DNA of 64,000 nt, taken from positions 62,001 through 126,000 of the forward strand of contig JANWVY010000007.1 in NCBI GenBank assembly GCA_025056455.1, given 5' to 3'. The position numbers were made by a program, and so were the translations under genes. This DNA is from Bryobacteraceae bacterium. GTDB taxonomy: Bacteria > Acidobacteriota > Terriglobia > Bryobacterales > Bryobacteraceae. Below the pieces are notes generated by a model. It was not told the DNA's origin and did no database searches. It worked only from the letters and a program-made list of their open reading frames with translations. This document shows, piece by piece, positions 8,607 through 45,205 of this stretch (its first letter is position 1; each line of letters starts with the position of its first letter).

Positions 8607-9347
8607 TCATGGGTTTGGAATCACCGACGCAAACAGCTTGCTCACAGCCTCCAGGTCCTCTGGCGTATCCACGCCCAGAGACTCGTAATCGGTTTCCATC
8701 ACCCGGATTCGAAAACCGTTTTCAATGGCCCGGAGCTGTTCAAGACGCTCGGCCTTCTCAAGCGGGCCGACGGGCAGCTGAGAATATCCGAGCAGAAAAT
8801 CCCGGCGGTAGACGTAAAGGCCAACGTGTTTATAGTGGACTGCCTCATGGCCGCGGTCATAGGGGATGGGCCAGCGAGAAAAGTAAATGGCGTCTCCATC
8901 CAGTGCCGTCACCACTTTGACCACATTGGGATTCTGGATCTCCGAGGGATGTTCGATTCGCTTTTTTAGCGTGGCCATGGGCGCATGGGTGTCATCGAGC
9001 AAGGCCAGTGTCGCTGCGTCGATGGCCCCGGGGTCAATCAGCGGCTCGTCGCCCTGGATGTTGACGACAATGCTGGCGGAATCCGCGCTGGCCACTTCGG
9101 CCACGCGATCAGTCCCAGAAGGATGGTCTGGCCTTGTTAGCCGGACCGGTGCGCGGAACTGCTGCGCGGCTTGCGCGATCCGCTCATCGTCGGTGGCAAT
9201 GATCACCTCACTGAGATAGCGAGCCTGCTTGGCGCGCTCGTAGACGTGTTGAATGAGAGGCTTCCCCGCAAGTGTGGCCAGTGCCTTTCCCGGAAACCGC
9301 ACCGAGGCGAAGCGGGCCGGGATCACACCCAGGATTCTTTGTGGCAC
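8607..9347 (-). CDS. kdsB: CMP-KDO synthetase
   Basis: Activates KDO with CTP to CMP-KDO. The 246-residue product begins [21 protein letters not shown], matching the KdsB nucleotide-binding N-terminus, with later motifs ATDDERI, NIQGDEP and HKHVGLY-like VHYKHVGLY. The frame is open up to 9416, but homology begins at the GTG at 9347. No ribosome binding site precedes that GTG; instead TATACT (with TGC before it) lies 5 bases upstream, suggesting a leaderless transcript. First gene of kdsB-pyrG-kdsA, divergent from the PQQ-type dehydrogenase at 9429. Confidence 0.92.
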
Positions 9348-9352
9348 ATGCG

Positions 9353-9358
9353 AGTATA
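9353..9358 (-). promoter_or_regulatory. Candidate -10 box for leaderless kdsB
   Basis: TATACT preceded by TGC (extended -10 pattern), 5 bases before the kdsB GTG at 9347; there is no Shine-Dalgarno sequence in the interval. The -35 region is weak. Confidence 0.5.
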
Positions 9359-9428
9359 GCACGCAAGCAGAGCCTTCGAATCCTGTGTACACTGAAGGCA
9401 GATTTGAACCAGACATTCAGAGTCAACC

Positions 9429-10616
9429 ATGAACCGCCGAATCTTTCTTACAACTAGTCTCTTCACCACCGCCTGGAACGCCTTGGCGCAGCTCGCAACC
9501 AAACTGCCGCCGCCATTTCATACACCCTCGGCCAACAACCGGCCCCGCGTAATTCCCCGTCCCAACGGCGCCCAGCTGTCTTTGCCCAGCGGTTTTCACA
9601 TCGAGGAGTACGCCAGCGATGGTTTCGAACGCCCCCGTTTTATGCTCGCTGGGCCTTCGGGGGAACTCTTGGTCACGGACTCGGTTGCAAACGGCAAGGT
9701 CCATCTCTTAATTGACAAAAACCGGGATTTTCGCGTGGACGAGCGCAAGGTTTTGCTGAGCGGTTTGGACCGGCCCTACGGTCTTGCCTGGTGGAAGGAT
9801 TATCTCTATGTAGCTGAAACGACTTCAGTTAAGCGTTACAAATATGACCGGGCAAACATGACCGTGGAGGGCGGCGAGGAGATTTTTCCGATGAAGGATT
9901 TTGGCAAAGGGCACTGGACCCGGAGCCTGCTGTTTGATCGCAAAGGCGAAAAGCTCTACATTGGCGTGGGTTCAGAGTCCAATGTGAGTCCCGGCGAACC
10001 GGAGCGCCGGGCCGCAATCAACCGCGTCAACCCGGATGGCTCCGGTCACGAGCTCTTCGCTACAGGTGTCCGTAATCCCATTGGCATGCGTTGGTATCCA
10101 GGCACCGATACGCTGTGGGCCGCCGTGCAGGAACGCGATGGGCTTGGCGATGATCTGGTGCCAGACTATCTCACCGCAATTCAGCCCGGTGGCTTTTACG
10201 GCTGGCCCTATAGCTACTTCGGCCCGAACGAAGACCCCCGCAACAAAGGATTGCGGGAGGACTTGGTCAAAAAGACGATCGTCCCAGATGTTTCTCTCGG
10301 CGCCCACGTCGCCGTGCTTGACTTTATCTTTTACCAGGGCAAACAATTCCCGGCCCGCTATCGTGGCGGCGCCTTTCTGGCTTTCCATGGCTCGTGGAAC
10401 CGCTCGGAGCGGGTCGGCTACTCTGTACACTTTGTGCCATTCCGAAAGGGCAAGCCAGCGGGTCCGCCAGAACCATTTTTAACGGGCTGGATGCTGGATC
10501 CGAAAAAGCAGGAAGTTTGGGGGCGTCCGGTTGCGGTTCATGAACTTCCCGACGGGAGTCTTTTGGTCTCAGACGACGGTGGGAATAAGATTTGGCGCGT
10601 CTCTTACAAGGGTTGA
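9429..10616 (+). CDS. PQQ-dependent sugar/sorbosone dehydrogenase-like beta-propeller protein
   Basis: Probably a periplasmic quinoprotein dehydrogenase oxidising a sugar or related alcohol/aldehyde. The N-terminus MNRRIFLTTS resembles a twin-arginine signal. Family features include LPSGFHIEEYA, the conserved GLDRPYGLAW, the VGSESNVSPGE loop, GVRNPIGMRW, and the C-terminal LVSDDGGNKIWRV that is typical of the sorbosone dehydrogenase fold. The 395-aa length is normal. Its 3' end overlaps the next gene, a heptaheme cytochrome c, by 25 bases, so the two products probably form a dehydrogenase-electron acceptor pair. Substrate and true PQQ use cannot be read from the sequence. Confidence 0.85.
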   Translation: MNRRIFLTTSLFTTAWNALAQLATKLPPPFHTPSANNRPRVIPRPNGAQLSLPSGFHIEEYASDGFERPRFMLAGPSGELLVTDSVANGKVHLLIDKNRDFRVDERKVLLSGLDRPYGLAWWKDYLYVAETTSVKRYKYDRANMTVEGGEEIFPMKDFGKGHWTRSLLFDRKGEKLYIGVGSESNVSPGEPERRAAINRVNPDGSGHELFATGVRNPIGMRWYPGTDTLWAAVQERDGLGDDLVPDYLTAIQPGGFYGWPYSYFGPNEDPRNKGLREDLVKKTIVPDVSLGAHVAVLDFIFYQGKQFPARYRGGAFLAFHGSWNRSERVGYSVHFVPFRKGKPAGPPEPFLTGWMLDPKKQEVWGRPVAVHELPDGSLLVSDDGGNKIWRVSYKG

Positions 10617-11203
10617 TTTGGATTTGGTCGGCAGCTTCAGCAGCTGATTTCTCTCATCAGCAGCACCTCGCTTTTCAGCCCGAATGCACGGTATGCCATC
10701 CGGCGGCGCGTTCGAGCCGCTCCCCGGCGGATAACCTGTTGCCCCGACCTGAGGTCTGCCGCTCCTGCCACGCTGAGGTTTCGATTGGTAAACCGAAGAC
10801 CCTGCGAGTAGTCTCTTTTAGTCACGAGCAGCACGGAAAACTCGGCAACTTGTCATCTGTATTCAGAGCCGCTGTCGCCTCACAAAGCTACTTGGGAGAG
10901 CCCGATGACTGGCTCAAGCGGGGTGATCGAGGCCATGAATGTCTGGCTTGCCATCGCGGCATTGCCACCTCGGTTTCCATCCCCAGTGAGGCCAAGTCCC
11001 ATTTTCCAGCCATGGCCGATTGCCTCGTCTGCCACAACAAAATTGATCCTCCTTTTAGTTGTGAAACGTGCCACCTGGGCGACAAATCGCTCAAGCCTGC
11101 CTCGCACACACCGGATTATTTAGACTCCCACACCAAGCGGTCCTTCAAACAAGGCTGTGCGCTGTGCCATGGCAGAAAATTCACTTGCCTTGGCTGTCAC
11201 TGA
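10592..11203 (+). CDS. Periplasmic heptaheme cytochrome c (c3/c7-like)
   Basis: Seven CxxCH heme-binding motifs are present in 203 residues: CTVCH, CRSCH, CLACH, CLVCH, CETCH, CALCH and CLGCH, the last ending the protein. Additional His residues such as SHQQH and SHEQHG could be distal ligands, as in c3/c7 cytochromes. The start is a TTG at 10592 inside the 3' end of the dehydrogenase gene; it gives a plausible signal peptide (MARLLQGLIWIW, cleavage near SAASA|AD). No stronger start lies between the stop and the first heme motif, so translation is likely coupled. It probably takes electrons from the overlapping dehydrogenase. Confidence 0.87.
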   Translation: MARLLQGLIWIWSAASAADFSHQQHLAFQPECTVCHPAARSSRSPADNLLPRPEVCRSCHAEVSIGKPKTLRVVSFSHEQHGKLGNLSSVFRAAVASQSYLGEPDDWLKRGDRGHECLACHRGIATSVSIPSEAKSHFPAMADCLVCHNKIDPPFSCETCHLGDKSLKPASHTPDYLDSHTKRSFKQGCALCHGRKFTCLGCH

Positions 11204-12350
11204 TGGCGACCGTTTCGACGCGGCAATCCCCGACAATCAGGGCACGCTCTCGCCGGTCTTGCTCGTCCGGTGGCAAGGCTCGGTTGACGCGAAAATCGAC
11301 CTGGACGGAGTCTGAATTCGCAGGGTGGGGAACTTCAAGCACCCAGCTGTGCTCGCCGCTGACGTGCAGCTGGTAGCGGCTCAGCAGCTGGCCGCTTGAA
11401 AACGCTTCAATTCGCAGCGGATCGCTTGCGTCAATCATCTGCTCCAGAGCAAACAATTTCAAGCTAATCCGGTACACAAAGCCTATGGCCAGCGGATCAA
11501 GGCCGAGCGAGAATTCCGCTTCCACCCACCTCCAACCCTCGCCTTCGGCTTGATGCCACCCTTGGAGCAGGCGGAGATGGTTCATGGCCCAAACGCTGCG
11601 AAGGAGGTAGAAGGCACGCTCGTCGCCTTCTAAACTCACGGGGTCGGATTCCGGAGTGAGCGAAACCCGGAACGATCGGACTACTTCAAACTTCGAGCGC
11701 GCGATCATGCGCCGCAGGCAAGCGTCGGTGAAGATCCAGAAGTTGCTGTTGTCCGCATTGAGCTGATCTTCTTCCAAAAGGAAGGCGACGGGTACGGTGT
11801 CAATCCGGCCCGGAAGCCCGGGCGCTGTAGCCATGATCCGGCTGCTGAGGATTACCCAATCGCAGCACCGCGCCAGTTGATCGAGGAGGACGAAGGGATT
11901 TTTGAGGTGATAGATGACCCCCAGGGCGAGGCCCAGTCCGAACCGCAGTTGTGGGAGACGGCACTGCTCGTCGATGTTCAAGGCACGCAAACAGAGCGAG
12001 GATCCCAGCGCCTGGCGCAAAGCCTCGACCCCCTGCAAGCCGTTGAAGTTCGTCGTGGGATTGTCAATGGCGTGCACGGCATAGCCGAGATGCTCGAGAA
12101 AGAAGCTGAGATCGCCGTCGCCGCAACCGACATCGAGACAGGGTTTTCCTCCCACCAGGTGGTCCAGAGCGGCTCGGCTCCCGCCGTCAAGCAGCGTTTC
12201 CAGATGCTGAACGTTGCTAAGCGAGTCGTAGGGATACCAGGCGATCTCTGGGAACTGGGCCTTGGCTCTTCGCAGCGTCTCGCGGAACTCGATGGCGCGG
12301 CGCACCAGCTCGCCTTGGCTTGTGCCGCGTTGAAAAATCTTCCATCTCAA
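11181..12350 (-). CDS. SAM-dependent methyltransferase, CmoB/DUF1698-like core with extra C-terminal domain
   Basis: Class I methyltransferase with SAM-binding motif I LDVGCGDGDLSFFLE near residue 95, motif II acidic position in VHAIDNP and a motif IV-like region LGLALGVIYHLKNP. The GVIYHLKNP and preceding WYPYD segments resemble tRNA-modifying CmoB/DUF1698 relatives, but small-molecule methyltransferases share them. About 190 further residues after the core have no motif I recognise. The start is a TTG at 12350, preceded by a TAAGCT box 6 bases upstream and no ribosome binding site. The 3' end overlaps the cytochrome gene on the other strand by 23 bases. Substrate unknown. Confidence 0.75.
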   Translation of the reverse strand: MRWKIFQRGTSQGELVRRAIEFRETLRRAKAQFPEIAWYPYDSLSNVQHLETLLDGGSRAALDHLVGGKPCLDVGCGDGDLSFFLEHLGYAVHAIDNPTTNFNGLQGVEALRQALGSSLCLRALNIDEQCRLPQLRFGLGLALGVIYHLKNPFVLLDQLARCCDWVILSSRIMATAPGLPGRIDTVPVAFLLEEDQLNADNSNFWIFTDACLRRMIARSKFEVVRSFRVSLTPESDPVSLEGDERAFYLLRSVWAMNHLRLLQGWHQAEGEGWRWVEAEFSLGLDPLAIGFVYRISLKLFALEQMIDASDPLRIEAFSSGQLLSRYQLHVSGEHSWVLEVPHPANSDSVQVDFRVNRALPPDEQDRRERALIVGDCRVETVAISDSQGK

Positions 12351-12356
12351 GGCATC

Positions 12357-12362
12357 AGCTTA
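12357..12362 (-). promoter_or_regulatory. Candidate -10 box for leaderless methyltransferase mRNA
   Basis: TAAGCT lies exactly 6 bases before the TTG start at 12350, in the 28-base gap after comEC; no Shine-Dalgarno sequence is present. Confidence 0.4.
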
Positions 12363-12378
12363 TCATTGCGGGCCGGCT

Positions 12379-14874
12379 CTAAAAGGGGGCAAGCGGCCCA
12401 GACCGCCTACCTTCCAGCCGGCGTTCCACCGAGATGCGCCTGCCATCACTGCGTAAAGTGACCAAGCCGTGGCGATCGGTACGGTACACCTGAATGTGGC
12501 GTTGTCGTAGCCGTTCTAAGACGCTCGGGTGAGGATGACGAAAAAAGTTGTCCTCCCCGGCCGATATCAACGCGAAGCTAGGATGCAGAGCGTCCAGCAG
12601 CGAATCGGTGGAAGACGTACGGCTGCCGTGGTGGGCCACTTTGAGAACTTGACAAGGTTTTAAATCCTCGAGCATCTCCACTTCGCCTGGCCGTTCGAGA
12701 TCGCCTGTCAACAAGAAGCACGTCTCACCGTAGTCCAAACGCAGGACGAGCGAGTCATGGTTGGTAGGGGTCATCCATTTGGGCTGGTAATCAACAGGAG
12801 GTGCGAGCACGCGAACCATCACCGGCCCGATTGACTGCGTGTGACCTTTGCGTAAGCTGCGGATACGAATGGACTGGCGCTGGGCCTCGGCTTGTAACTG
12901 GCTCCAGGATTCGCTTTCTGGCGTTGCGCCGACCCACAACTCGCGAGGCTTGAAGTTGCGGATCAGGGCGAGAAGTCCGGCCGCGTGGTCATCGTGCTGG
13001 TGGGTGTTGGCGATGTAATCGACTCTCCGGATTGAGCGGCTCAACAGATAAGGCGTGACGACGTCTTCACCAATGTCCAAGCGTGGCTTTGCGCCGGTTT
13101 TACCGAGCGAAGGGATTCCACCTCCATCAACGATCATCCACTGTCCGTCGGGAAACCCAACGAGCAGGCTTTCGCCTTGACCAACGTCGATCATCGTGAC
13201 TTCGAGCACACGGGCCTGGCTCTGCGGAGGAAAGGGATGCCAGACGATGAGGGCCAGTAGGGACACAGTTGGAATGAAAAGTAGCCGTTTCCCCAGCAAA
13301 GCGAGTGCGCCGAGCGAGACAACAAAAGCGGTGGCCAGCCACCAAGGCGGATCCGGGACGAGCCAGTTCGGTTCTCGGGCCGCATGCCAGCGAGCGAAGT
13401 TGCCCGACACATGCACGAGTCCCTGTGCCAGCCACACCGGGAGCGGCCAGCCGGTCAGCGCAGCTAGAAAGCCTACCGGAACGGCGAGTGTCAACAAGGG
13501 TGTCACGAGCAGGTTGGCCGTGACCGCCGTGAGCGAAAGGCGGTGGAAATAAAAAATTACCGGCAAGGCAAGTCCAAGCTGAACAGCGAGCGAAACCAGG
13601 ACCGTTTCTGTTGCTGCCAGCGAACACCACGCCGCTAGGCGCACGAGCCCGAGGCTAATCGTGAAGCGCAACCCTGTCACATGATGGAGGGTTTCCGCGA
13701 TCAACCGCAGTTCGATGCGGAACTGCGCCTGGTGTGGCTCGAGGTGGAGGTCGCGATCCGTCTCCAAGAGTCCGTGCAGAGCTTGGCGAAGCCGTGTGGT
13801 GCTGGCCTCCAAGGCCGGTGAGGCCAGCGCCGCTAGCGCGAGGACCGAAAGGAACGAAAACTGGAAACTCGCCTCACGGCAACTCTCTGGGTCAGCGAGC
13901 AGAAAAATGACGACAACGGCGGCAAGCAAATTCAAGGGACGGCATCCTCGGAAAAAGAACCGGCCGATAGCAAACAGCGTGAAGCCGGCTGCCGCCCGCA
14001 TCAGAGGGATTTGCCAGCCGCAGATCCCCACATAAGCCCAGGCAAGAAGAGCCGCGAGCAGCTGGGCTGAAGTTCTTCTTCGCACAACCACGCTCAGCAA
14101 GGGCACGAGGACTGCCGCCACGATGGTCAAGTGAAGGCCCGAAATGACGATGGCATGGTATGTTCCTGTACGGCGAAAATCCTCCACCCATACCCGCTCA
14201 AGCCGTGAAGAGTCACCGACGAGGAGCGCTTGCAGCATGGCTGCCGTGTAGGGATCATCCGCGTAAAGCTGCTCCAGGCGGTCGAAGATCAACGCGCGAG
14301 TGTGGTAAAGCGCAGCTTGCCACGGGTTGCCGCAGTCTCCCAAAAGCCGGGGAGCGGCACCGCGGCGTACGGTTGCGGTCCAGAAGATCTTGCGGCGCGC
14401 CAAATAAGCTTCGTAATCAAATGACCCAGGATTTTCAAAATTCCGTGGCTGCCGGAGTCGCGCCTGCACTTCCAGCCGCTGGCCATAGGCGATCCGGGGT
14501 GGCTTTTCGTCCTCCTCGAAATAGAAACTCACCTGCACGCGCGCCCCGGGCGCTAACTCCAGGATGAATTGCACGCGGTTTTCAAACCAGGCGGGAGGAG
14601 CCACAACACAGCCCTCCAACATCACTACGCTTCCAGACTCGACGGGAAGTGCTGGCCGCGGGCCTGGTCGCCGCCAGCAAGCAAGAAAAACCCCAAGGCT
14701 TAAGATGAACACACAGAGATACGCCAGGCGATAGGTTGAGAAAGCGAGCGCCAAAAGTCCGCAAACGAGCAAGAGGAGGAGTTTGTGCAGCTCAAATCCG
14801 AGCGCGTGCCCGGTTACGATTCCAGCCAGTAAGCACAGCGCCGGCAACAGCAAAGGATTAGCCCGAAGGCGCAT
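12379..14874 (-). CDS. comEC: ComEC/Rec2 DNA uptake channel with metallo-beta-lactamase domain
   Basis: Inner-membrane channel for single-stranded DNA during natural transformation. The 831-residue protein has an N-terminal membrane/DUF4131 region, a central ComEC competence domain of many hydrophobic segments (for example YHAIVISGLHLTIVAAVL, the signature SGLHLT), and a C-terminal metallo-beta-lactamase-like domain with TMIDVGQGES, NTHQHDDHAAGL and KVAHHGSRTSS. The His/Asp metal ligands in HQHDDH look complete. An ATG at 14874 is preferred over a TTG two codons upstream. With a PilB/PilC/PilM machine in the same window, DNA uptake is plausible, though no comEA or secretin gene is visible here. 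Confidence 0.93.
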   Translation of the reverse strand: MRLRANPLLLPALCLLAGIVTGHALGFELHKLLLLLVCGLLALAFSTYRLAYLCVFILSLGVFLACWRRPGPRPALPVESGSVVMLEGCVVAPPAWFENRVQFILELAPGARVQVSFYFEEDEKPPRIAYGQRLEVQARLRQPRNFENPGSFDYEAYLARRKIFWTATVRRGAAPRLLGDCGNPWQAALYHTRALIFDRLEQLYADDPYTAAMLQALLVGDSSRLERVWVEDFRRTGTYHAIVISGLHLTIVAAVLVPLLSVVVRRRTSAQLLAALLAWAYVGICGWQIPLMRAAAGFTLFAIGRFFFRGCRPLNLLAAVVVIFLLADPESCREASFQFSFLSVLALAALASPALEASTTRLRQALHGLLETDRDLHLEPHQAQFRIELRLIAETLHHVTGLRFTISLGLVRLAAWCSLAATETVLVSLAVQLGLALPVIFYFHRLSLTAVTANLLVTPLLTLAVPVGFLAALTGWPLPVWLAQGLVHVSGNFARWHAAREPNWLVPDPPWWLATAFVVSLGALALLGKRLLFIPTVSLLALIVWHPFPPQSQARVLEVTMIDVGQGESLLVGFPDGQWMIVDGGGIPSLGKTGAKPRLDIGEDVVTPYLLSRSIRRVDYIANTHQHDDHAAGLLALIRNFKPRELWVGATPESESWSQLQAEAQRQSIRIRSLRKGHTQSIGPVMVRVLAPPVDYQPKWMTPTNHDSLVLRLDYGETCFLLTGDLERPGEVEMLEDLKPCQVLKVAHHGSRTSSTDSLLDALHPSFALISAGEDNFFRHPHPSVLERLRQRHIQVYRTDRHGLVTLRSDGRRISVERRLEGRRSGPLAPF

Positions 14875-14953
14875 CAGCAAGTTCGTTGCCTCGACTAGCC
14901 AGAGTTCTCAACAAAATCGGCGCCAGCTGCATCAGAATGAAAGAAAGGGGCAG

Positions 14954-16312: not shown

Positions 16313-16336
16313 GAAATGGCAGCTGGCGTGGCTACG

Positions 16337-17245
16337 CTAGGGCAAGGTCGATTCCACGGCTCGCGCCAGTTCCTCATAGGCCATCTTGCCGGGATGATAA
16401 AGACGCACCAGGCCGTTGCGGTCCACTAACACCAGGGTAGGCGTCGTACTGCACCCCCACACTCGGAAATTCTCTTCACTCAACGGCACCGACATTTCCC
16501 CGAGCATCGCGTAGTGCTGCCGCCGGATTTCTTCAATGTACAGTTTCTCCTGGGCCGGAGTGGCTTCGGTGCCACGAGCGGTATAGCCGTAGCGCTGAGT
16601 AGGGCCTACGATCACCAGTCCCCGGCCCGCGTATTTTTCCAGAAGCTGTGCCAAAACTGGCCCCTGAGCTTTACAATCCGGACACCAGTGCGCCCAAAAA
16701 AACAGGAGAACAGTCTTGCCCTTCAAAGAGGAGAGCGGCCGCGGTTTCGGGCCTAGCCACTCCTTGATTTCAAGCGGGGGCGGAGGCTGGCCTTCGAGTG
16801 TGAGCAGGTGAATATTCTTCTGAATCCGGGCTCGAATGGAAGTGTTGCGCCAAGCAGCCAGCTCCTGGCGCAGAAAAGAAACTCCTTCACTTCGCTGTCC
16901 TCTAGCAGCAAGCAACTGGCCCTGAACCTCAATGGAAGCGCCCAAGGCGATGGGCAGCCGGGGTTCGTCATCGAGTCCTCTTGTTTGGAGAGCGTCTAAA
17001 CACATCCGCCGGGTTTCGGCGGCATAGCGTTCAGCTTCGTCATAGCGCTTCCGCGCGAGCGCACCTCGTCCCAACCACGAGTAGGCTTCGAGCCACTCTG
17101 GAGTTACCCCGTGCTGTTTCCGGAATTCGCTCAACAGCGATTCCGCTTTTTGAAAATCATCTTGCGCGAGGGCCGCACGGACATCAGCCACCAGGGCGGC
17201 GAGGCCTGAGCCGGAGAGGGTGACAAGCAGGAGCATCACTCGCAT
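16337..17245 (-). CDS. TPR-TlpA fusion: thioredoxin-like protein
   Basis: A 302-residue exported protein. A short hydrophobic N-terminus (MRVMLLLVTLSGSGLAAL) precedes helical repeats (about 20-135, TPR-like pairs such as YSWLGRGALARKRYDEAERYA), then a redoxin/TlpA domain from about 160 with SSLKGKTVLLFFWAHWCPDCK. The active site is CPDC. A cis-Pro segment (TTPTLVLVDRNG) is visible. It probably acts as a periplasmic disulfide reductase or redoxin. The start ATG at 17245 has no ribosome binding site but has TATGCT 6 bases upstream. It converges on the dehydrogenase gene at 16312 with 24 bases between. Confidence 0.82.
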   Translation of the reverse strand: MRVMLLLVTLSGSGLAALVADVRAALAQDDFQKAESLLSEFRKQHGVTPEWLEAYSWLGRGALARKRYDEAERYAAETRRMCLDALQTRGLDDEPRLPIALGASIEVQGQLLAARGQRSEGVSFLRQELAAWRNTSIRARIQKNIHLLTLEGQPPPPLEIKEWLGPKPRPLSSLKGKTVLLFFWAHWCPDCKAQGPVLAQLLEKYAGRGLVIVGPTQRYGYTARGTEATPAQEKLYIEEIRRQHYAMLGEMSVPLSEENFRVWGCSTTPTLVLVDRNGLVRLYHPGKMAYEELARAVESTLP

Positions 17246-17251
17246 ACGCCC

Positions 17252-17257
17252 AGCATA
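17252..17257 (-). promoter_or_regulatory. Candidate -10 box for leaderless TPR-TlpA gene
   Basis: TATGCT with a 6-base discriminator (GGGCGT) directly before the ATG at 17245; no Shine-Dalgarno sequence. The upstream SDR gene ends only 25 bases away on the far side of the start, so this gene is transcribed from its own signal. Confidence 0.5.
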
Positions 17258-17269
17258 TCAGCGGCCCCC

Positions 17270-31721: not shown

Positions 31722-33170
31722 TCAAACCAGCGCCGCTGCAGGCTCCAGCCGCAGGGATTGCGCCTGGTCGAACTTTCTGTGAAACAAGTTTCCGAGGATT
31801 GCCACACCTTGCTGAATTTTCTCTGGTGGCAACCCAGCAAAACTCAGCCGGAGACTGCTTGATTCCAAGCGAGCCACTGCGAAATAGCGCCCCGGCATAT
31901 AACTCACCCCTGCCTCCACGGCCTCGTCGAGCAGATCGGCCGTATCGAGCAAATCCGGCAAGCGCACCCACAGGTTCATGCCTCCCTGCGGTCGCGTGAA
32001 ACGAGAACCTGGTGGCAGAAAGCGCTGGCAGGCCTCAAGTACCGCCTGAAGTCGCTTGCGCCCTTCGCAAAGCACGCTTTCAAGGTGCTTGTCGAGTCGC
32101 CCAGACTCGGCAAAGCGGAAAAGGACTGCTTGCGAGAGGTGATCCGTGTGCAAGTCACAGGATTGTTTGGCTACCGCAAGCTGAGAAATCAGAGCCTTCG
32201 GGCCCACAATCCAGCCCACGCGCAACCCTGGAAAAGCGATTTTCGAAAAACTTCCGACTCGGATGACGTCGCCTGAGCCATCAAGCTGCTTGAGCGTCGG
32301 TAAGCTCTCGCCTTCATAGCGCAAGTCGCCGTAGATGTCGTTTTCCAGCAAGATGACGCTGTGATCGCGCGCAAGGCGGAGCACAGTTTCTCGAGCCGCC
32401 AGGGTCAGGGTTGTACCTGTCGGGTTCTGAAAGTTTGGCGTCACCACGAGCAAACGCGGACGCTCGCGACGGATGTTTGTTTCCAGCCGATCCAGATCAA
32501 GACCATTTAGGGTGACCGGAACGCCGATCAGCCTGGCGCCGCACCGGGCGAACACGTTCTTTAAGCCGGGATATACAGGGTCCTCCACCAGAACGGCATC
32601 CCCCGGCCGGACAATCGCTCGCTGAATGAGGTCGATTGCCTGCTGGCAGCCACTCGTGATCAGGATTTCATCCGAGTTCTGACCGTAGCGGCGCAGAAAC
32701 TCGCGCAAGGGAGCGTAGCCGAGCGGAGATCCGAGCTGTAAGATGTCGGTCAGCTTCCCGCTTGACAACACCTCTTGGCAGCTTTGTTGGAAATCTTGTA
32801 ACGGAAACAGCTCACTCGCCGGCCGAGAAGCCACGAAACTGATTGGGGCCGTGCGGACTGGCCCGAGTTCGGTTGCATAGGCGAACGATGACCAGTCGAT
32901 GCGTGAACTCCCTGCCTCTGCCGCAGTGCTGACGAAGCTGCCCCGTCCCACGTGACTCTTTAGAAGTCCCTCGGCTTCCAACAACTCATAAGCGGCGGAA
33001 ACGGTGGTTCGATTCAGCCCAAGCATACCAGCCAATTCCCTTGTGGCTGGCAGCCGTTCGCCGTGCCGGAGGATTCCCTGCTGAATGAGATCTCGAATTT
33101 TTTCTGCAAGTTGGCGATAGATTGGGGAATCTGAGCGGAAGTCAGGACGGAGCGCCGCAAGCAATTCCAC
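31722..33170 (-). CDS. pdxR: MocR-type regulator (GntR-aminotransferase fusion), probable PdxR
   Basis: Transcription factor of 482 aa (GTG start at 33170; the frame is open to an ATG at 33203). The N-terminal GntR winged helix shows [31 protein letters not shown]; the rest is a class I aminotransferase-like domain with [27 protein letters not shown] and the PLP-Lys region [15 protein letters not shown]. Location directly upstream of pdxS and pdxT, on the same strand, points to PdxR, the regulator of PLP synthesis that senses PLP. The GTG is preferred because TATGCT lies 6 bases upstream and homology to GntR proteins begins shortly after. Confidence 0.86.
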
Positions 33171-33198
33171 TTTAAAAGCATACCATATTGGACCACTT
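33167..33198 (-). promoter_or_regulatory. Candidate PdxR operator: two direct AAGTGG repeats around the promoter
   Basis: AAGTGG occurs on the minus strand at 33193-33198 (extended AAGTGGTCC) and again at 33167-33172, 26 bases apart. The first lies between the -10 and the expected -35, the second covers the predicted transcription/translation start. AGTGGTCC-like direct repeats are known from MocR/PdxR binding regions, which supports autoregulation. Confidence 0.45.
33177..33182 (-). promoter_or_regulatory. Candidate -10 box for leaderless pdxR
   Basis: TATGCT followed by the 6-base discriminator TTTAAA and then the GTG at 33170. There is no Shine-Dalgarno sequence. Confidence 0.45.
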
Positions 33199-34627: not shown

Positions 34628-34633
34628 TATAGT
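34628..34633 (+). promoter_or_regulatory. Candidate -10 box for leaderless sulfatase gene
   Basis: TATAGT with a 6-base discriminator (GAGCCC) immediately before the ATG at 34640; no Shine-Dalgarno sequence between. Confidence 0.5.
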
Positions 34634-34639: not shown

Positions 34640-36154
34640 ATGCTAACCCGGAGAGACTGGCTCGCGGCCAGCGCCTCGAGCCTGAGCCCTTTGACAGGGA
34701 CGCAAAAGCAGACCCCGCGGCGTAGAGCCAAGCAGCCAAATTTCTTGTTTCTCATTGCGGACGATCATGCGGCCTATGTCATGGGGGCAGACGGCGATCG
34801 CCAGGCAGTGACTCCCCACCTCGACCAGCTGGCCGCGCAAGGGGCGCGCTTTGCCGCCCATTACTGCAACTCGCCCGTGTGCACCCCGTCGCGGCAAAGC
34901 TTTTTCACCGGTCAGATGCCTTCGACGGTAGGTGTAACCCGATTGCCAACCCCGTTGAACCCGGACAAGCCTACCCTTGCAAAACAATTCAAGCAAGCCG
35001 GCTACCGCACAGCGGTCATCGGCAAAATGCATTTCAACCGCCGAGCTTCCCCCGGCTTGCATGGTTTTGACTACTTAATCACCGAACGAGAGCTTGCCGC
35101 GGACTGGAATAAAAACGTGAGGCCCCGTCCCATACCGCAGGAGATTCGCACCAAACCAGCGTGGCGGCCCTTTCGCGACCCAGCGCGAATCTGGTTAAAC
35201 GCTGACAAGTTGCCCTACCCGCGCTATGAGCAGGACATGAAAGCTGCTTACCAGGTCCGACTTGCCGAACAGTTTCTGGAAGAGAATCGCCAGACGCCCT
35301 TTGCACTCTGGGTGAGCTTTCACGAGCCGCACTCGCCGTTCGATTTTCCTGTCGAATTGCGGTCCAAATTTGACCCAAAAACCTTTCATCCGCCTCGCGT
35401 AGGCCCTGAAGATGGCTGGCAAATTCCAAAGATCTTTCGCGATCTTACCGAGGAGGACAAACAAGGGATTCTCGCCGCCTACTACACGTCGGTTTTCTAT
35501 TTAGATCAAAACCTGGGGCGTTTATTGGAAAAGCTGCGCCGGTTGAATCTGGAGGAAAATACCCTGGTCGTCTACACAGCCGACCATGGCTACGATCTCG
35601 GACATCACGGGCGGTTTGAAAAACACTGTGGCTGGGATCCTGCGCTCCGCGTACCGGTCATCTGGCGCTATCCAGGAAAGATTCGACCGGGGGTGATCCA
35701 CGATCTTACTGAGCACCTTGATCTTGCGCCCACCGTTGTTGATCTTCTGGATCTCGAGCCCTTACCTATTCAGCATGGCCGCTCGTTAAGGCCGTATTTC
35801 GAAAATCGGAAGATCCAACCACGACCGTATATCTTCAGCCAGTATTTAGAGAATGAGGAAGCCTATGTGCGGACCCATCGATGGAAGCTGATTTATGGTT
35901 CCGGGAAACGCGCACGCGGTGACGGATACGAGACCGATCACCCTACACCAGGACGCTACGTCCGACTTTATGACTTGCAGGCCGATCCTGACGAATTTAC
36001 GAATGTGGCGGAGCGGTTTCCCGGCCTTGTTGCGGAGCTTGAGCAAATCCTGTTAGACCGATTCCGCAGCACGCATCCCGAGGCGGATCAGGAGCCGCCA
36101 AACTCAGACCGCGAGGCGATCCTCGATTGGTATCTCCGTCCGCGAGACGTTTGA
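34640..36154 (+). CDS. Exported type I sulfatase
   Basis: 504-residue arylsulfatase-type hydrolase acting on sulfated carbohydrates or esters. The N-terminus MLTRRDWLAASASS looks like a twin-arginine signal. Metal- and substrate-binding motifs are complete: NFLFLIADDHAAY (Asp-Asp), the formylglycine site CTPSR in NSPVCTPSRQSFFTGQ (Cys is the residue converted by the maturase), IGKMH, and the C-terminal YTADHGYDLGHHGRF. No maturase gene is in the window. It is followed by an aldose 1-epimerase on the same strand, consistent with sugar use. Confidence 0.93.
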   Translation: MLTRRDWLAASASSLSPLTGTQKQTPRRRAKQPNFLFLIADDHAAYVMGADGDRQAVTPHLDQLAAQGARFAAHYCNSPVCTPSRQSFFTGQMPSTVGVTRLPTPLNPDKPTLAKQFKQAGYRTAVIGKMHFNRRASPGLHGFDYLITERELAADWNKNVRPRPIPQEIRTKPAWRPFRDPARIWLNADKLPYPRYEQDMKAAYQVRLAEQFLEENRQTPFALWVSFHEPHSPFDFPVELRSKFDPKTFHPPRVGPEDGWQIPKIFRDLTEEDKQGILAAYYTSVFYLDQNLGRLLEKLRRLNLEENTLVVYTADHGYDLGHHGRFEKHCGWDPALRVPVIWRYPGKIRPGVIHDLTEHLDLAPTVVDLLDLEPLPIQHGRSLRPYFENRKIQPRPYIFSQYLENEEAYVRTHRWKLIYGSGKRARGDGYETDHPTPGRYVRLYDLQADPDEFTNVAERFPGLVAELEQILLDRFRSTHPEADQEPPNSDREAILDWYLRPRDV

Positions 36155-36217
36155 AGCCTAGCTGGTGCGCCGGTAGCGGGATTTGGGCATGCGCCAAAGA
36201 TGGCCAGCCCGCTTTGA

Positions 36218-36223
36218 TAACCT
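36218..36223 (+). promoter_or_regulatory. Candidate -10 box for leaderless aldose 1-epimerase gene
   Basis: TAACCT, 7 bases before the ATG at 36231. The weakest of the set, as the match to TATAAT is poor and AGGGG lies only 2 bases before the start. Confidence 0.3.
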
Positions 36224-36230
36224 AGGGGCC

Positions 36231-37361
36231 ATGTGCAAGTTTGCACTTCTGTTCCTTCTCAGCTTGGAGATGCTCTTAGCGAGTGAGGCGCCTTCTTCCA
36301 ACGGCGGTTCGGTGCGTGTGAAGCGCGAAAATTTTGGCAAAACAAGAGACGGCGCGCCGGTGTCCCTCTTTACGCTTCAAAACTCGCGCGGAATTCGAGT
36401 CCAGATTACGAATTATGGTGGCATCATCACGGCGATCTTCGTACCCGATCGTAAGGGGAATTTCGGCGACATCGTCCTCGGCTTCGATACGCTCGAGCCT
36501 TATCTGAAAGAACACCCCTACTTTGGCGCCATCATCGGCCGCTATGCCAATCGAATCGCAAAGGCGCAATTCCGTCTGGGAGGACAAATTTACCAGCTGG
36601 CCGCCAATGATGGCCCGAATCATCTTCATGGAGGAAGAAAGGGATTTGACAAGGTCCTCTGGAAGGCCCAGGAATTCCATCGAGCGGGCAGCGCCTCGGT
36701 TGAACTGACTTACAACAGTCAGGATGGCGAGGAGGGATATCCGGGTAACCTCTCCGTGAAAGTCGTTTACACCTTAAAGGATTCAAACGAACTACAGCTC
36801 GATTATTTTGCAAACACCGACCGCGATACTGTTGTGAATCTAACCAATCACACCTACTTCAATCTTGCAGGCACCGGTGACATTCTGAAACATGAACTGA
36901 CACTTTATGCCGATCAGTTCTTGCCTGTCGATGGCGGGCTGATCCCAACCGGCGAGCTGCGCGCCGTGGCTGGGACAGCGTTCGATTTTACTAAGCCAAC
37001 ACGGATTGGATCGCGCCTTCACCTTCCTGACGAACAACTCCGGATCGGGAAAGGCTACGACCATAACTTTGTTCTTCGAGGGCCTTCGGGTTCACTGCGA
37101 GTTTTTGCCGAAGTTTATGATCCAACTTCTGGTCGCGCGCTTACGCTTTCCACGACAGAGCCTGGGGTTCAGTTCTACACGGGAAATTTTTTGGATGGCT
37201 CACTTTCTGGGAAAGGCCGCAAATACGTCTTTCGCAGCGGCTTCTGTTTAGAAACCCAGCATTTTCCCGATTCTCCCAATCAGCCGTCGTTTCCGAGCGT
37301 GGTTCTTCGGCCGGGCCAGCAATTCCGCTCTTCCACGGTGTGGAAGTTTGGCGTGAGATGA
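36231..37361 (+). CDS. galM: Exported aldose 1-epimerase (mutarotase)
   Basis: Interconverts alpha and beta anomers of galactose and glucose. 376 aa with a signal peptide (MCKFALLFLLSLEMLLAS). Family motifs: NYGGIITAIFVPDR, GAIIGRYANRIAKAQF, NDGPNHLHGGRKGFDKVLW (catalytic His in HLHGG), VNLTNHTYFNLAG (second His) and the C-terminal GFCLETQHFPDSPN (catalytic Glu). The upstream in-frame Met at 36183 lacks support; the ATG at 36231 gives the signal peptide. Periplasmic location suggests work with imported or extracellularly released sugars. Confidence 0.93.
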   Translation: MCKFALLFLLSLEMLLASEAPSSNGGSVRVKRENFGKTRDGAPVSLFTLQNSRGIRVQITNYGGIITAIFVPDRKGNFGDIVLGFDTLEPYLKEHPYFGAIIGRYANRIAKAQFRLGGQIYQLAANDGPNHLHGGRKGFDKVLWKAQEFHRAGSASVELTYNSQDGEEGYPGNLSVKVVYTLKDSNELQLDYFANTDRDTVVNLTNHTYFNLAGTGDILKHELTLYADQFLPVDGGLIPTGELRAVAGTAFDFTKPTRIGSRLHLPDEQLRIGKGYDHNFVLRGPSGSLRVFAEVYDPTSGRALTLSTTEPGVQFYTGNFLDGSLSGKGRKYVFRSGFCLETQHFPDSPNQPSFPSVVLRPGQQFRSSTVWKFGVR

Positions 37362-37454
37362 GTTTCTGGACTGGGCCCATCCGTGATTACAACCCGAATG
37401 CCAGCGCAAACCTTCCGTTGCTAGTGAAGATTTCCCGAGAAAACGAAGATCCGC

Positions 37455-40589: not shown

Positions 40590-40739
40590 AGGGAGGCCTG
40601 TATCAGGGTAGCAAGATTAGAAAATTAGTAATACCACATCGCGAGGCTCTGGATCTTTAAACAGGCCCGCGTCTTGTGCAATCTCATCGAGAGAAGCGGT
40701 TCAAACCTTCGGGCTGAGGCCAGAGCGCAGGTCGATCAG

Positions 40740-41560
40740 CGTGCTCTGAATGTGGTTGCACACGGGCAATCAGTTTGGCGGAGATCCGGCGATTGGAGCC
40801 TGGGTTGGATACGGCTTGGTACTGAGAATCAAAACCTTCCCTCCTTTGTGGTTTTACCCGACCTTGCTCATCCGCAAGGCGGCGCTGCGAATGGGGGCAA
40901 CGGCTTTTTGCCTGCCCACGATCAGGGGACACCTCTGCGTCCCGAAGGTGCTTCGGTGCTAGACATGGCGCCGCTAGCCGCGCGTACTGGACATCTCTCA
41001 GGAGTCCCCCAAAACGCTGGAAATGTACGGCATTGGCAGCGCGAACAAGGAAGTAGACGCAGTTGGGCGGCACTGGCCGTCTGGTGGAAGCTGGCGTGCG
41101 CTTCGTTCAAGTGATCGTCATGGGCCGGGACTCTCACGACTAGATTGACAAAGCTCATGGCGCCCGTCTTCGCGCCATTGATAAAACTATGGCCGCCTTA
41201 ATCAAGGACCTGAAGCGCTGGGGCCTGCTTGAGGAAACTTGAGTCGTCTGGGCGGGCGAATTCGGCCGTAGCCCCGACAACGGCATCCGCCGTGGCTTGA
41301 CAGCCTGGGGCAAGGACCATAACATCAACGCCCTGCCCGTTTGGCTCGCTGGCGGTGGCGTCAAAGCAGGTCACCTTGTTGGCGCCACGGACGAGGTGGG
41401 GGGCCAGGCGATCCAAGTGGTGCATCCCATCAAAGATTTTCACGTCACCCTGCTGCACCTTTTAGGCTTGGACGACAACAATCTTCGTCACATGCACTCG
41501 GCTCGAGAAAAACAGCTCAGCCAGACAGGAGGCATGGTCATTCGCGAGCTTCTTGCCTAA
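40740..41560 (+). pseudogene. Decayed DUF1501 gene
   Basis: Fragments of a DUF1501 (sulfatase-like, often exported) protein are readable in order but in changing frames. Segment 1 from 40750: LHTGNQFGGDPAIGAWVGYGL. Segment 2 from 40818: GTENQNLPSFVVLPD and GNGFLPA. Segment 3 from 40984: LDISQESPKTLEMYGIG. Segment 4 from about 41070 to 41560: RLVEAGVRFVQV, GEFGRSPD, ALPVWLAGGGVKAGH, LLHLLGLD. In-frame stops are TAG at 41141 and TGA at 41240, and about 100 residues seem deleted between segments 2 and 3. No signs of an intact copy here. Confidence 0.8.
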
Positions 41561-41612
41561 GCAAATCGAGGCTTGCTGCTCGGAAAGAGGCTTGTGTACA
41601 ATCCCAAATGTG

Positions 41613-41640
41613 GAAGTAAGTCTCTCTCTGCACTTACTTC
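41613..41640. repeat. 9-bp inverted repeat upstream of the LRR gene
   Basis: GAAGTAAGT (41613-41621) and ACTTACTTC (41632-41640) form a perfect 9-bp stem with a 10-base CT-rich loop, about 109 bases upstream of the LRR start. There is no T-run after it, so it is not an ordinary terminator; it may be an operator or 5' leader hairpin. Confidence 0.35.
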
Positions 41641-41748
41641 TAAGTTCGTTTCGATCTGTCTCAGCGAGATAGGGCGGAACGAACGGGCAGGGATTTCCAT
41701 CCCACCGCCACACTCCAAAAAGCTTGATTTCTGGCAAGGGGGTCGACC

Positions 41749-42564
41749 ATGAAGTTCTTCGTGCCACCAGTCTTGCTTGTTTTATCGGTCTCAATTTCAA
41801 GCGCTGCGGACGCGCCAGTGAATATTTTCCCAGATAAAAACTTAGAGGCGGCCGTTCGCAAGCACGTCTTCGCCAAACGCGAAAATACTGAGCCGATCAC
41901 CGAAGACGACGTCAAGAGTCTGTCTGTGATTACCGCGAATGGAGCCGGAATCCGTAACCTGACAGGTCTGGAAAAATGTAAGGCGCTCGCCCAACTCGAA
42001 CTCGCCAATAACGAAATCTCCGACCTCACTCCTCTCAAGGATCTAGCCAACTTACAAAGTTTAGATCTTGCAAATAATAAGATTCAGGACATCACCCCAC
42101 TAGCTTCCGTCAAGGCGCTCCAGTATCTCAACCTGACGCAAAATCAAATTTCCGATATCACAGCCGTCAAAGGGCTGACGGCGTTAAACGCACTTTACTT
42201 ATCGAAGAACAAAGTGAGTGATCTTACGCCTCTCAGTGGTCTGAACCGCTTGGCGTCCTTGTATCTCGATGGCAACTTGATCCAGAACATCGCGCCGCTG
42301 GCATCGCTGCCATTTCTGTCGATGCTGGACCTCAGCGGAAACCAGATATCGGACATCAAGCCGCTTGAGAAAATGACTTCTCTGTGGAAACTCTACCTTG
42401 ACCGCAACCGGGTCTCCGACCTTTCTCCGTTGATTGCGTTGGCGAAGGCCGGACAAGCAAACACGCCGCGATTTGTCACCATAACGGGCAACCCGTTGAA
42501 ACCCGCCACCAAAGCAGCGCAGATCGCCGAAATGCAGAAACTGTCCTTTACTGTGACGCCTTAG
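41749..42564 (+). CDS. Secreted leucine-rich-repeat protein (internalin-like)
   Basis: 271 aa with a signal peptide (MKFFVPPVLLVLSVSISSA). About seven 22-residue leucine-rich repeats of the SDS22/internalin kind span residues 80-240, each with the LxxLxLxxNxIxDLxPL pattern (for example LAQLELANNEISDLTPL and LQSLDLANNKIQDITPL). Before them is a short cap (NIFPDKNLEAAVRKHV), as in internalins. No anchor motif follows, so it is probably periplasmic or released. AAGGGGG lies 6 nt upstream of the ATG. Likely a protein- or glycan-binding scaffold; no partner is evident. Confidence 0.88.
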   Translation: MKFFVPPVLLVLSVSISSAADAPVNIFPDKNLEAAVRKHVFAKRENTEPITEDDVKSLSVITANGAGIRNLTGLEKCKALAQLELANNEISDLTPLKDLANLQSLDLANNKIQDITPLASVKALQYLNLTQNQISDITAVKGLTALNALYLSKNKVSDLTPLSGLNRLASLYLDGNLIQNIAPLASLPFLSMLDLSGNQISDIKPLEKMTSLWKLYLDRNRVSDLSPLIALAKAGQANTPRFVTITGNPLKPATKAAQIAEMQKLSFTVTP

Positions 42565-42574
42565 CGTGCATCTC

Positions 42575-44332
42575 TCATTCCCACTCAATCGTTGCCGGGG
42601 GTTTGTGGGTGAGATCATAAAAAACGGTCGAGACGCCTTCTGTTTCGAGGAGTTCCCGACAAATGTGTTCGAGTAGCGCATCCGGCATCCGCACGGCTTC
42701 CGCCGTCATCCCGTCCACCGAATCAACGGGTCGCAGCACGACGCTATCTGGCCGGTCGAGAGTTCCGACAGGTAGCAGGATGACGGGGAACTGCCAGATT
42801 GTGCGGTCGAATCCACTCGCTTGAGACAAGCGCTGGACCGCTGCGTCGACGCGGCGGAGACGTTCCAGCCGTTCTTCCGTGATGGTCGCGGCGAAACTGC
42901 GTAACCCTCCAACCGGGGTGTGTGTGGCCACGACTGCCACGACGCGGTTAATCTCGCTGTGGCGGTTGATGAGCTCGGTTGGAAGTTGCCAGTCGGAGGG
43001 CAGGTACGGCAAGGCGAATGCCGCCCGGTAGGTCCGGGAATCTCCTTGGACTCCCACAGACCGCACGGGCAGAAGATAGCCATCGTGGGCGCGCCGGACG
43101 GGTGTTTCCTCACGCGAGCACAAGCAGCGTATGGCCAGAGCGGGACCGGGAAACGGATGCCGGCTCAGCATCTCCTCCGGAATTTCAAGTTGCCGCCCGA
43201 TTTCGCGAACTTCGTCCTTGTAAAACTGGCTGAGGGGTTCAACGATGCGGCCGCTTTCGATCAATTTCTGGATTCCCGCCACACGATTATGATGCGTCTT
43301 GATCTTGTCTGCCTTGGCTGTTCCGCCAGACTCGATCGTGTCAGGATAGATGGTGCCCTGACCAAGAACCCAGTCGGAATCGGTGTAGTGGCCTGATTGC
43401 AGGATTTGTTCTTGGATGGCGACAAAATGCTCCCCGATAATTTGGCGCTTGACTTCAGGTTCCACGACTCCGGCTAGAGAAGTCAGGAATTCAGCGCTAG
43501 CGTCAACAATGCGGAAGTTACGGGCGCCCAGTTTTGCAAAGTTGGTGCGTACGAGTTCGGTTTCGCCCTCGCGCATCAGCCCCGTATCGACATAGGCTCC
43601 GTGGACGCGCTCTGGTCCAAGAGCTCGCAAGCACAAGTCAAAGGCCACAGTCGAGTCCACGCCTCCGCTAACGAAGAAAAAAACCTTGCGGCCAGCCGCG
43701 GCTTGGCGAATCTGCTCTTCGATGGCAGGAATGCGTTGTCTTGGATCCCAGTCCTCCACGCAGCCGCAGATGTCGAAAAGAAAGTTGGCTAGCACGCGGC
43801 CGCCCGGTTGGGTGTGAGCCACCTCGGGGTGAAACTGCAAGCCAAACAGCTTCCGTCGTTCATCTCCCATCGCTGCGACCGGACAAGTGGAGGTTTGCGC
43901 CAGCACTTCAAATCCAGGCGGGACGGCGACGGTCGTGTCGCGGTGACTCATCCAAACTCGCTGCTTGCCTGATATTCCTCGCAGAGGCCCCTTGGGGGCG
44001 ATGACGTCGAGATAGGCTAAGCCATATTCGCCCTGGTCGCCCTTCTGCACACGGCCACCAAGCAGATGCGCCATCAAGTGCTGGCCGTAACAAATTCCGA
44101 GAACCGGTACACTCATTGAAAACAGGGCCGGGTCTACGCTGGGACTGTTTTCTTCATACACACTGGCCGGCCCGCCCGAGATGATGATTCCTCGTACGGC
44201 TTTGAGAGCGGCAGCGGGGGTTTCCGGGGCGCGTACTTCCGCATAGACGCCCAACTCGCGCACCTTCCGCGCGATGAGATGGCAGTACTGTCCACCAGTA
44301 TCAAGAACGATGATTTGAGGGGTGAGACTCAA
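42575..44332 (-). CDS. guaA: GMP synthase (glutamine-hydrolysing)
   Basis: Converts XMP to GMP. 585 aa with glutaminase domain (IIVLDTGGQYCHLIARKVRE, Cys in GICYGQHLMAHLLGG, FHPEV), ATP-PPase domain (P-loop FVSGGVDSTVAFDLC) and a C-terminal dimerisation domain (ending HKPPATIEWE). The frame is open to a TTG at 44371, but a second TTG at 44332 gives a normal N-terminus (8 residues before IIVLD) and has TACACT 6 bases upstream, so it is preferred. It converges on the LRR gene with a 10-base gap. The start is the least certain part. Confidence 0.94.
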   Translation of the reverse strand: MSLTPQIIVLDTGGQYCHLIARKVRELGVYAEVRAPETPAAALKAVRGIIISGGPASVYEENSPSVDPALFSMSVPVLGICYGQHLMAHLLGGRVQKGDQGEYGLAYLDVIAPKGPLRGISGKQRVWMSHRDTTVAVPPGFEVLAQTSTCPVAAMGDERRKLFGLQFHPEVAHTQPGGRVLANFLFDICGCVEDWDPRQRIPAIEEQIRQAAAGRKVFFFVSGGVDSTVAFDLCLRALGPERVHGAYVDTGLMREGETELVRTNFAKLGARNFRIVDASAEFLTSLAGVVEPEVKRQIIGEHFVAIQEQILQSGHYTDSDWVLGQGTIYPDTIESGGTAKADKIKTHHNRVAGIQKLIESGRIVEPLSQFYKDEVREIGRQLEIPEEMLSRHPFPGPALAIRCLCSREETPVRRAHDGYLLPVRSVGVQGDSRTYRAAFALPYLPSDWQLPTELINRHSEINRVVAVVATHTPVGGLRSFAATITEERLERLRRVDAAVQRLSQASGFDRTIWQFPVILLPVGTLDRPDSVVLRPVDSVDGMTAEAVRMPDALLEHICRELLETEGVSTVFYDLTHKPPATIEWE

Positions 44333-44338
44333 ATTTTC

Positions 44339-44344
44339 AGTGTA
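44339..44344 (-). promoter_or_regulatory. Candidate -10 box for leaderless guaA
   Basis: TACACT followed by a 6-base discriminator (GAAAAT) and a TTG start at 44332; no Shine-Dalgarno sequence. Lies within the spacer after the M15-like gene. Confidence 0.4.
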
Positions 44345-44367
44345 ACGGCTCACGCCGCCAGCTTGCT

Positions 44368-45192
44368 TCAATCGGTGAGGCGCAACCGCGCACTTGGCGG
44401 ACCGATATGGATGTGAGGGGCAGAAGAAACGCCCCGAATGGCACTGCGAAATGCCATGTAGGGAACCCGTGTTACCTCAAGCCACTCACACAACCAGCGG
44501 CCCTCCGGTGAGTCCGGATTGAGAGCGACATCCACCCGTCCCGTATGGTTGTAGCCCAGAGTACGGTGAAAAAGTGTGTCGCCGCGCGCGCTGACTGGCA
44601 ACGGCCGGCCAAACATGCGCTCAAATTCCTGCTCTAGGCGTTTGAGCCTTGCAGCGCCGATGGTCCCGTAGTTTGGATCCCCCTCGGCCCGCTTGAGAGC
44701 CTCCATGTGCTCGGCCTCGAGCTGCGCTAAGCGCGCCTGTTCGGCACGTGCCATTTCTGCCAGCTGGTTCCAGAGGCGGGACCTGGCTTCCGCCTCGATG
44801 AGCCATCGCCGGCGCAAGTCCAGCTCTTCGAGCAGCGGGGTGAGAGAGGTGCGTGCTGCCACCCCTTGCTCGACCAACTTCCTCTGGTGATCGATGCGCG
44901 CTTGCTGTCGCTCCACTAGGCGTTGGGCGGCAGTTCGCATCTCCTGCTCAAGCTCCTCGGACAGCTCATCTACCTGAAGCGGCCCAAAGAGCGTCCGGCG
45001 CAGTGTAGCTTGATCTTGCGCATCGGCGAGCATCTGGCGCGCCTCCGAAAGGTGCTTTGCAGCGAGGCCACCCGCCTCAACGAGCCGTTCGATGCGCTCG
45101 AGCTCGGCCAGAGCGCGGGCCACTTCCGGTGGCGCTTGCGCGGCGAGAGGGAAGGCCCAAGCCAAGCCCACAAGCCCCAGCAGGTTTCGCAT
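44368..45192 (-). CDS. Exported coiled-coil protein with M15-like metallopeptidase C-terminus
   Basis: 274 aa. Signal peptide (MRNLLGLVGLAWAFPLAAQ), a long Ala/Glu/Arg-rich coiled coil (about 25-180; ALAELERIERLVEAGGLA, EELDLRRRWLIEAEARSR), then a compact domain with LGYNHTGRVDVALNPDS and HIHIGP. The spacing of H-x4-D and H-x-H resembles zinc ligands of M15 D-Ala-D-Ala peptidases, so a cell-wall or cross-linking role is possible. The catalytic Glu/Asp is not clear and activity is unproven. ATG at 45192 (or 45201) lacks a ribosome binding site; TACAAT lies 7 bases before 45192. Confidence 0.62.
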   Translation of the reverse strand: MRNLLGLVGLAWAFPLAAQAPPEVARALAELERIERLVEAGGLAAKHLSEARQMLADAQDQATLRRTLFGPLQVDELSEELEQEMRTAAQRLVERQQARIDHQRKLVEQGVAARTSLTPLLEELDLRRRWLIEAEARSRLWNQLAEMARAEQARLAQLEAEHMEALKRAEGDPNYGTIGAARLKRLEQEFERMFGRPLPVSARGDTLFHRTLGYNHTGRVDVALNPDSPEGRWLCEWLEVTRVPYMAFRSAIRGVSSAPHIHIGPPSARLRLTD

Positions 45193-45199
45193 CTTTCTC

Positions 45200-45205
45200 A
45201 TTGTA
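45200..45205 (-). promoter_or_regulatory. Candidate -10 box for leaderless M15-like gene
   Basis: TACAAT with a 7-base discriminator (GAGAAAG) before the ATG at 45192, close to the consensus TATAAT. The gene is divergent from rsfS, with 48 bases between the two starts. Confidence 0.45.

Follow-up and report, generated by a model that had tools for sequence, protein, structure and literature searches.

Eight genes in the window, the 64,000-nucleotide stretch of acidobacterial DNA analyzed here (positions 62001-126000 of contig JANWVY010000007.1; genome 4.98 Mb, 29 contigs), carry a TANNNT box 5 to 7 nt before their start codons. An earlier reading of the window's sequence (hereafter the original prediction) had proposed that these genes are expressed from leaderless messenger RNAs (mRNAs). 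Our analysis supports that proposal through the enrichment of such boxes before start codons in the rest of the genome, -10-like features that played no part in picking them, a sharp lower edge in their spacing, and their scarcity inside operons; for part of the genes the box is also conserved among orthologues. The best explanation of these observations, and in our judgment a very probable one, is that the boxes are -10 elements giving rise to leaderless mRNAs.

Enrichment was measured in 1.6 Mb outside the window, about a third of the genome, in which genes were called by a simple dicodon-score caller blind to upstream sequence and starts were assigned by three rules, leaving 1201, 1200, and 1151 usable genes. 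Whichever rule was used, TANNNT located 5-9 nt ahead of the start ranked first among 64 XYNNNZ patterns, with 114, 142, and 126 occurrences against 51.5, 55.6, and 52.7 expected. The original prediction had named a lack of genome-wide TANNNT enrichment as a result that would speak against it; the enrichment found was instead strong. Its rough estimate of a 3% per-gene chance of such a box was close to the measured value, 2.5% for three spacings (9.94/1201 per position). Purine-rich patterns resembling the Shine-Dalgarno (SD) sequence ranked next, as expected if many of the chosen starts are correct.

In-frame TAA and TAG stops upstream of a start are a source of TANNNT in their own right, and under the first-start rule this artefact inflates spacings 6, 9, and 12, where TARNNT peaks. 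The excess under that rule, although the largest (142 vs 55.6), was for this reason rejected as sole evidence. TAYNNT cannot be an in-frame stop and is free of the artefact; it occurred 76 times against 25.9 expected in all genes, 73 against 17.9 in genes lacking an SD sequence, and 3 against 8.0 in genes that have one. Among genes with a single possible start (forced starts; 196 of 1175 genes), TAYNNT was found at 18 starts where 4.1 were expected (P 4e-7) and TANNNT at 32 where 7.2 were expected; by codon, ATG contributed 14 (2.67 expected) and GTG 4 (0.89 expected). The same pipeline applied to 250 kb of E. coli K-12 (197 genes) revealed no excess (6 vs 7.7), TANNNT ranking 47th. The TAYNNT excess at forced starts corresponds to 13.9/196 at 5-9 nt and 17.4/196 at 5-12 nt, or about 7-9%, and to about 8-10% of genes after division by the 85% TAY share, while score-chosen starts across all genes give about 5%. 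We put the leaderless share of genes at roughly 5-10%.

To characterize the boxes themselves, we compared 82 boxes of SD-less genes, all at 5-9 nt, with 202 control boxes at 20-59 nt, in-frame stops having been removed from both sets. The box core was TAYAMT, with C or T at the third base in 85% (control 61%), A at the fourth in 45% (27%), and A or C at the fifth in 76% (60%). A G stood two bases before the box in 48/82 (59%), compared with 38% of the controls. A matrix cross-validated between contigs, with one used for training and the other for testing, gave 11 hits at spacings of 0-4 nt and 134 at 5-12 nt (12, 21, 24, 18, 19, 12, 16, and 12 at the successive spacings) over a background of 4.5 per position. 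The few hits at 0-4 nt imply that boxes are rarely so close as to leave the start codon out of the transcript. Transcription usually starts at the seventh base after the -10 box, and at a spacing of 6 this base is the first of the start codon. The sharp edge at 5 nt is consistent with transcripts that begin on the start codon or shortly upstream of it. Box genes were also seldom internal to operons (7/68), compared with 128/319 genes with an SD sequence (P 1e-6) and 184/783 genes with neither element (P 0.01). As a class, box genes occupy promoter-proximal positions, guaA of the window excepted.

These observations suggest a simple mechanism, for which we infer from sequence the transcript 5′ end, the identity of the sigma factor, and initiation at the 5′ terminus. 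Housekeeping-sigma -10 elements would sit so near the start codon that RNA polymerase starts the transcript at that codon or a few nucleotides before it. The resulting mRNA would have neither a leader nor an SD sequence, and the ribosome would have to begin at a 5′-terminal AUG or GUG, perhaps also UUG. The genome encodes an RpoD-type sigma factor with TIRIPVHMIETINKL, a segment that presumably reads the base pair at -14; two sigma factors with region 1.2, both RpoD-like, are encoded. The 3′ end of the 16S rRNA, GGATCACCTCCTTT, is intact, which indicates a normal anti-SD. Other genes would be translated from SD-led starts, which are more frequent inside operons.

All eight boxes and spacings claimed for the window are present in the sequence, and all eight genes lack GGAG, GAGG, AGGA, and AAGG at positions -18 to -5. 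At 4-12 nt no box precedes motB or pdxS, two genes to which the original prediction had assigned good SD sequences, and none precedes two type II secretion system genes. On the reverse strand, the cytidylyltransferase gene kdsB (coding sequence, CDS, 8607-9347) has TATACT at 9353..9358, 5 nt before GTG. The methyltransferase gene (CDS 11181-12350) has TAAGCT at 12357..12362, 6 nt before TTG, the TAA being an in-frame stop, and the gene for a TPR-thioredoxin protein (TPR-TlpA; CDS 16337-17245) has TATGCT at 17252..17257, 6 nt before ATG. TATGCT also precedes the pdxR-like gene, which encodes a GntR/aminotransferase protein (CDS 31722-33170); this box, at 33177..33182 and 6 nt before GTG, lies inside CCAATATGGTATGCT (33177-33191). 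The GMP synthase gene guaA (CDS 42575-44332) has TACACT at 44339..44344, 6 nt before TTG. The last reverse-strand gene (CDS 44368-45192) has TACAAT at 45200..45205, 7 nt before ATG and within TCGTACTACAAT (45200-45211). It had been labeled M15-like, a label we could not support as the product has no Pfam family and its best match is SulA (E 0.14); we keep the name as a handle. On the forward strand, the sulfatase gene (CDS 34640-36154) has TATAGT at 34628..34633, 6 nt before ATG, and the aldose 1-epimerase gene (CDS 36231-37361) has TAACCT at 36218..36223, 7 nt before ATG. Scanning the window for Rfam families and tRNAs returned no matches.

When starts were picked without regard to the box, one at 5-7 nt was present in 4 of the 51 genes of the window (1.27 expected, P 0.04), namely the methyltransferase, TlpA, pdxR, and M15-like genes. 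For kdsB, sulfatase, aldose 1-epimerase, and guaA the blind rule favored a different start by 0.7-2.7 score units. Taken alone the window is weak evidence, while the remainder of the genome is strong evidence. A G lies two bases upstream in seven of the eight window boxes (P 0.006 given the 38% seen in controls), and this is independent support because the feature was first seen on other contigs. Two further sites in the window were noted. At 46027 (-), an open reading frame (ORF) of about 73 codons has TATCCT 8 nt before its box-blind ATG and is either a possible extra leaderless gene or a false ORF. Between 47974 and 48159, divergent genes for EPSP synthase and a 3-keto-disaccharide hydrolase-like protein each have TAGAATGAAGA upstream, the distance from box to ATG being 11 and 14 nt.

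Orthologues were collected from 61 genomes of the family, with at most 30 loci per gene; those of kdsB were taken from pyrG loci, which are not confined to the family and come in part from a few other phyla. A locus was scored positive when TANNNT preceded, by 5-9 nt, any in-frame start close to the aligned one, and decoy patterns were scored alongside. For kdsB the box was found in 27 of 43 usable loci (decoys: TNNNAT 22, others at most 14) and at 5/10 forced starts, all five of them GTG. The corresponding figures were 11/24 for the methyltransferase (decoys at most 4; 2/6 forced starts, window copy included) and 15/30 for the sulfatase (decoys at most 8; 7/10 forced starts, window copy included). 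The sulfatase query matched 59 stretches in its own genome, which points to many sulfatases. M15-like orthologues had the box in 25 of 28 usable loci (TNNNAT, met by the same TACAAT, in 21; others at most 8) and at 2/2 forced starts, and guaA had it in 9/30 (TNNNAT 7, others at most 4). For TlpA the count was 12/30 (decoys at most 8) with 0/5 forced starts, and a copy from the same genus has TATCCT at a spacing of 6. Pooling the forced-start orthologues and excluding the window genome, the box was present in 19/51 where 1.8 were expected, an excess unmatched by any other of the 64 patterns. Single genes differ: by alignment, a portion of the kdsB, guaA, sulfatase, methyltransferase, and M15-like orthologues retain the putative promoter box together with the start, and the predicted TlpA box is moderately supported by its orthologues, whereas the aldose 1-epimerase and pdxR boxes do not rise above decoys.

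Two of the boxes lie in longer conserved elements. TCGTACTACAAT, which holds the M15-like box, is exact in 19/30 orthologue loci and occurs once exactly in the host genome, which suggests a candidate gene-specific conserved promoter or operator. A regulon behind it was considered and rejected, as the genome has one exact and four one-mismatch copies compared with 10 for a reversed control. In the pdxR-like -10 region (33177-33191, reverse strand), CCAATATGGTATG is exact in 9/30 loci and the looser CCAWWDTGGTA is found in 25/30. The element around this box is possibly an autoregulatory operator.

The TTG start of guaA was followed across 50 loci (56 genomes had a match). A box was found in 15, in 13 of them before TTG, and all 13 TTG boxes have a spacing of 5 or 6 nt. 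At 18 loci TTG is the sole ATG, GTG, or TTG between an in-frame stop and the conserved core; 7 of these have TANNNT at 5-6 nt (P 1.5e-7 at the 2.5% chance, with loci counted as independent despite shared descent). A co-directional ORF of at least 60 codons ends within 60 nt of guaA at 11/15 box loci and 30/35 others, and one that overlaps guaA or ends within 10 nt is found at 3/15 box loci vs 17/35 others (P 0.07). A promoter at the guaA box would in many cases lie within a possible operon, in a gap wide enough to hold it. The remaining loci lack such a TTG box, and their starts tend to be nearer to, or to overlap, the upstream co-directional ORF. That the guaA mRNA is leaderless and begins with UUG in the 13 sampled genomes, which represent 12 genera of the family, is a tentative reading that we hold to be somewhat doubtful. 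If true, ribosomes of this acidobacterial family accept a 5′-terminal UUG. The gene poses a testable mechanistic question, whether a bacterial ribosome can start on such a codon. TTG is reported to be ineffective in the leaderless position in M. smegmatis (PMC4633059), UUG makes up 3% of leaderless starts in P. acnes (PMC3848588), and a review describes UUG as far less efficient than AUG on leaderless mRNAs in E. coli (PMC9031893).

The product of pyrG, the gene adjoining kdsB, has its best matches in Bryobacteraceae/Bryobacterales and other Acidobacteria at about 73-82% identity. Judged by these matches the host is an acidobacterium near Bryobacteraceae, not an actinobacterium and not a Deinococcus. 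In other Acidobacteriota, the pooled pyrG loci, one of them left out and the same genes being repeated among them, had TAYNNT 17 times against 9.4 expected and TANNNT 32 against 16.1; the closest subset had TAYNNT 6 times against 3.6. The strong signal comes from one genome, and the samples from other genomes are small.

Several results weigh against the boxes being leaderless promoters, or against some of the boxes. A -35 element (at least 4/6 matches, 16-19 nt upstream) gave no signal (15/82 boxes vs 25/202 controls). The extended -10 (TGNTATAAT), with TG one base upstream, was present in 13/82 vs 22/202, only the G being clearly enriched. The contrast between genes with and without SD sequences is partly mechanical, as the two elements would have to occupy the same bases. 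Among the orthologues, pdxR had the box in 16/30, but decoy TNNNAT also reached 16 and two others 12 (1/1 forced start), and these orthologues were dropped as support; aldose 1-epimerase had 10/30 (decoys at most 9; 0/3 forced starts), and its box is uncertain. In the window, the co-directional M15-like gene ends 35 nt before guaA, which need not be the first gene. None of the 19 forced TTG starts in the host genome has a box (0.56 expected), and TTG as a general leaderless start there was rejected even though score-chosen TTG starts gave 18 vs 7.6. For TTG at a spacing of 5-6 nt the usual +1 would be a T; together with the result for forced TTG starts, this makes leaderless UUG initiation a suggestion and not a result. 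In 400 kb of a second genome of the same family the signal was only a trend (TAYNNT 12 vs 7.2 and TANNNT 20 vs 13.7, each with P 0.064; TANNNT ranked 14th), and the distant subset of pyrG loci had TAYNNT 4 times against 4.7. Given these two results and the repetition of genes among the pooled pyrG loci, we do not claim generality across the phylum.

Three other explanations of the boxes were weighed. The boxes could be real -10 elements upstream of short, SD-less leaders, with translation beginning a few codons further in. The blind start choice differs from the original one in four of the eight genes, some TANNNT excess persists at spacings 10-12 (15, 20, and 15 against 9.9 per position) as leaders of a few nucleotides would predict, and the seventh base after TTG boxes at 5-6 nt is a T. 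However, genes and orthologues with a single possible start still have the box at 5-9 nt, and the edge at 5 nt, taken relative to the start codon, would lose its sharpness with many misplaced starts. We consider this explanation unlikely.

That the boxes reflect chance or base composition, aided by in-frame TAA/TAG stops and free start choice, is very improbable. The stop artefact does exist, as the TARNNT peaks show, and the methyltransferase box, which starts with its ORF's own stop, may be merely that codon; support for this box in the window genome is weak. About one third of the boxes in SD-less genes are also expected by chance (34.7/102). Yet TAYNNT, which is never a stop, is enriched as described above for all genes and at forced starts, TANNNT ranks first, the E. 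coli control is negative, and the flanking positions are unlike those of control boxes. Chance is excluded for the class and is possible for single genes such as the aldose epimerase. It is scarcely credible that the T/A-rich element is a translational signal, such as an S1 binding site or an unfolded start region, instead of a promoter. S1 sites are discussed in a passage of PMC5397173 as an alternative reading of the A/T bias upstream of SD-less starts. Here the element is not a general rise in A/T but a spaced hexamer of the form TAYAMT, preceded by G at -2, and it is scarcer inside operons, where a translational signal would still be required. Leaderless transcription from -10 elements remains the reading that we prefer.

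This mode of starting is of an already known kind, predicted in silico for this phylum, and nothing here differs from it in kind; the recurrent TTG start of guaA is the single possibly unusual case. The present analysis adds one lineage of a large, poorly studied phylum, for which a literature search of limited coverage found no transcript-start map. It also yields a promoter rule, G-N-TAYAMT followed after 5-9 nt by the start, that is usable for correcting gene starts in the host genome. Zheng et al. 2011 (PMC3160421) report leaderless (TA-led) genes in 3/3 Acidobacteria at a mean of 13.3% (9.7-19.4%) of genes. As here, their TANNNT is read as a -10 box, and its first T precedes the start by about 12 bp; our genome is another one, near Bryobacteraceae, with a rough share of 5-10%. 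The -10-motif mode of Deinococcus-Thermus (PMC12340547) likewise places TANNNT directly before ORFs with SD-led genes alongside; there the -35 element is dispensable but strengthens expression, as shown by mutation and reporters. That mode covers about 30% of ORFs, whereas here, in another phylum, G at -2 and TAYAMT are prominent and the system is known from sequence alone. In mycobacteria (PMC4633059), leaderless ATG and GTG messages are common and translated; TTG fails there as a leaderless start, whereas guaA here has a recurrent TTG 5-6 nt from its box.

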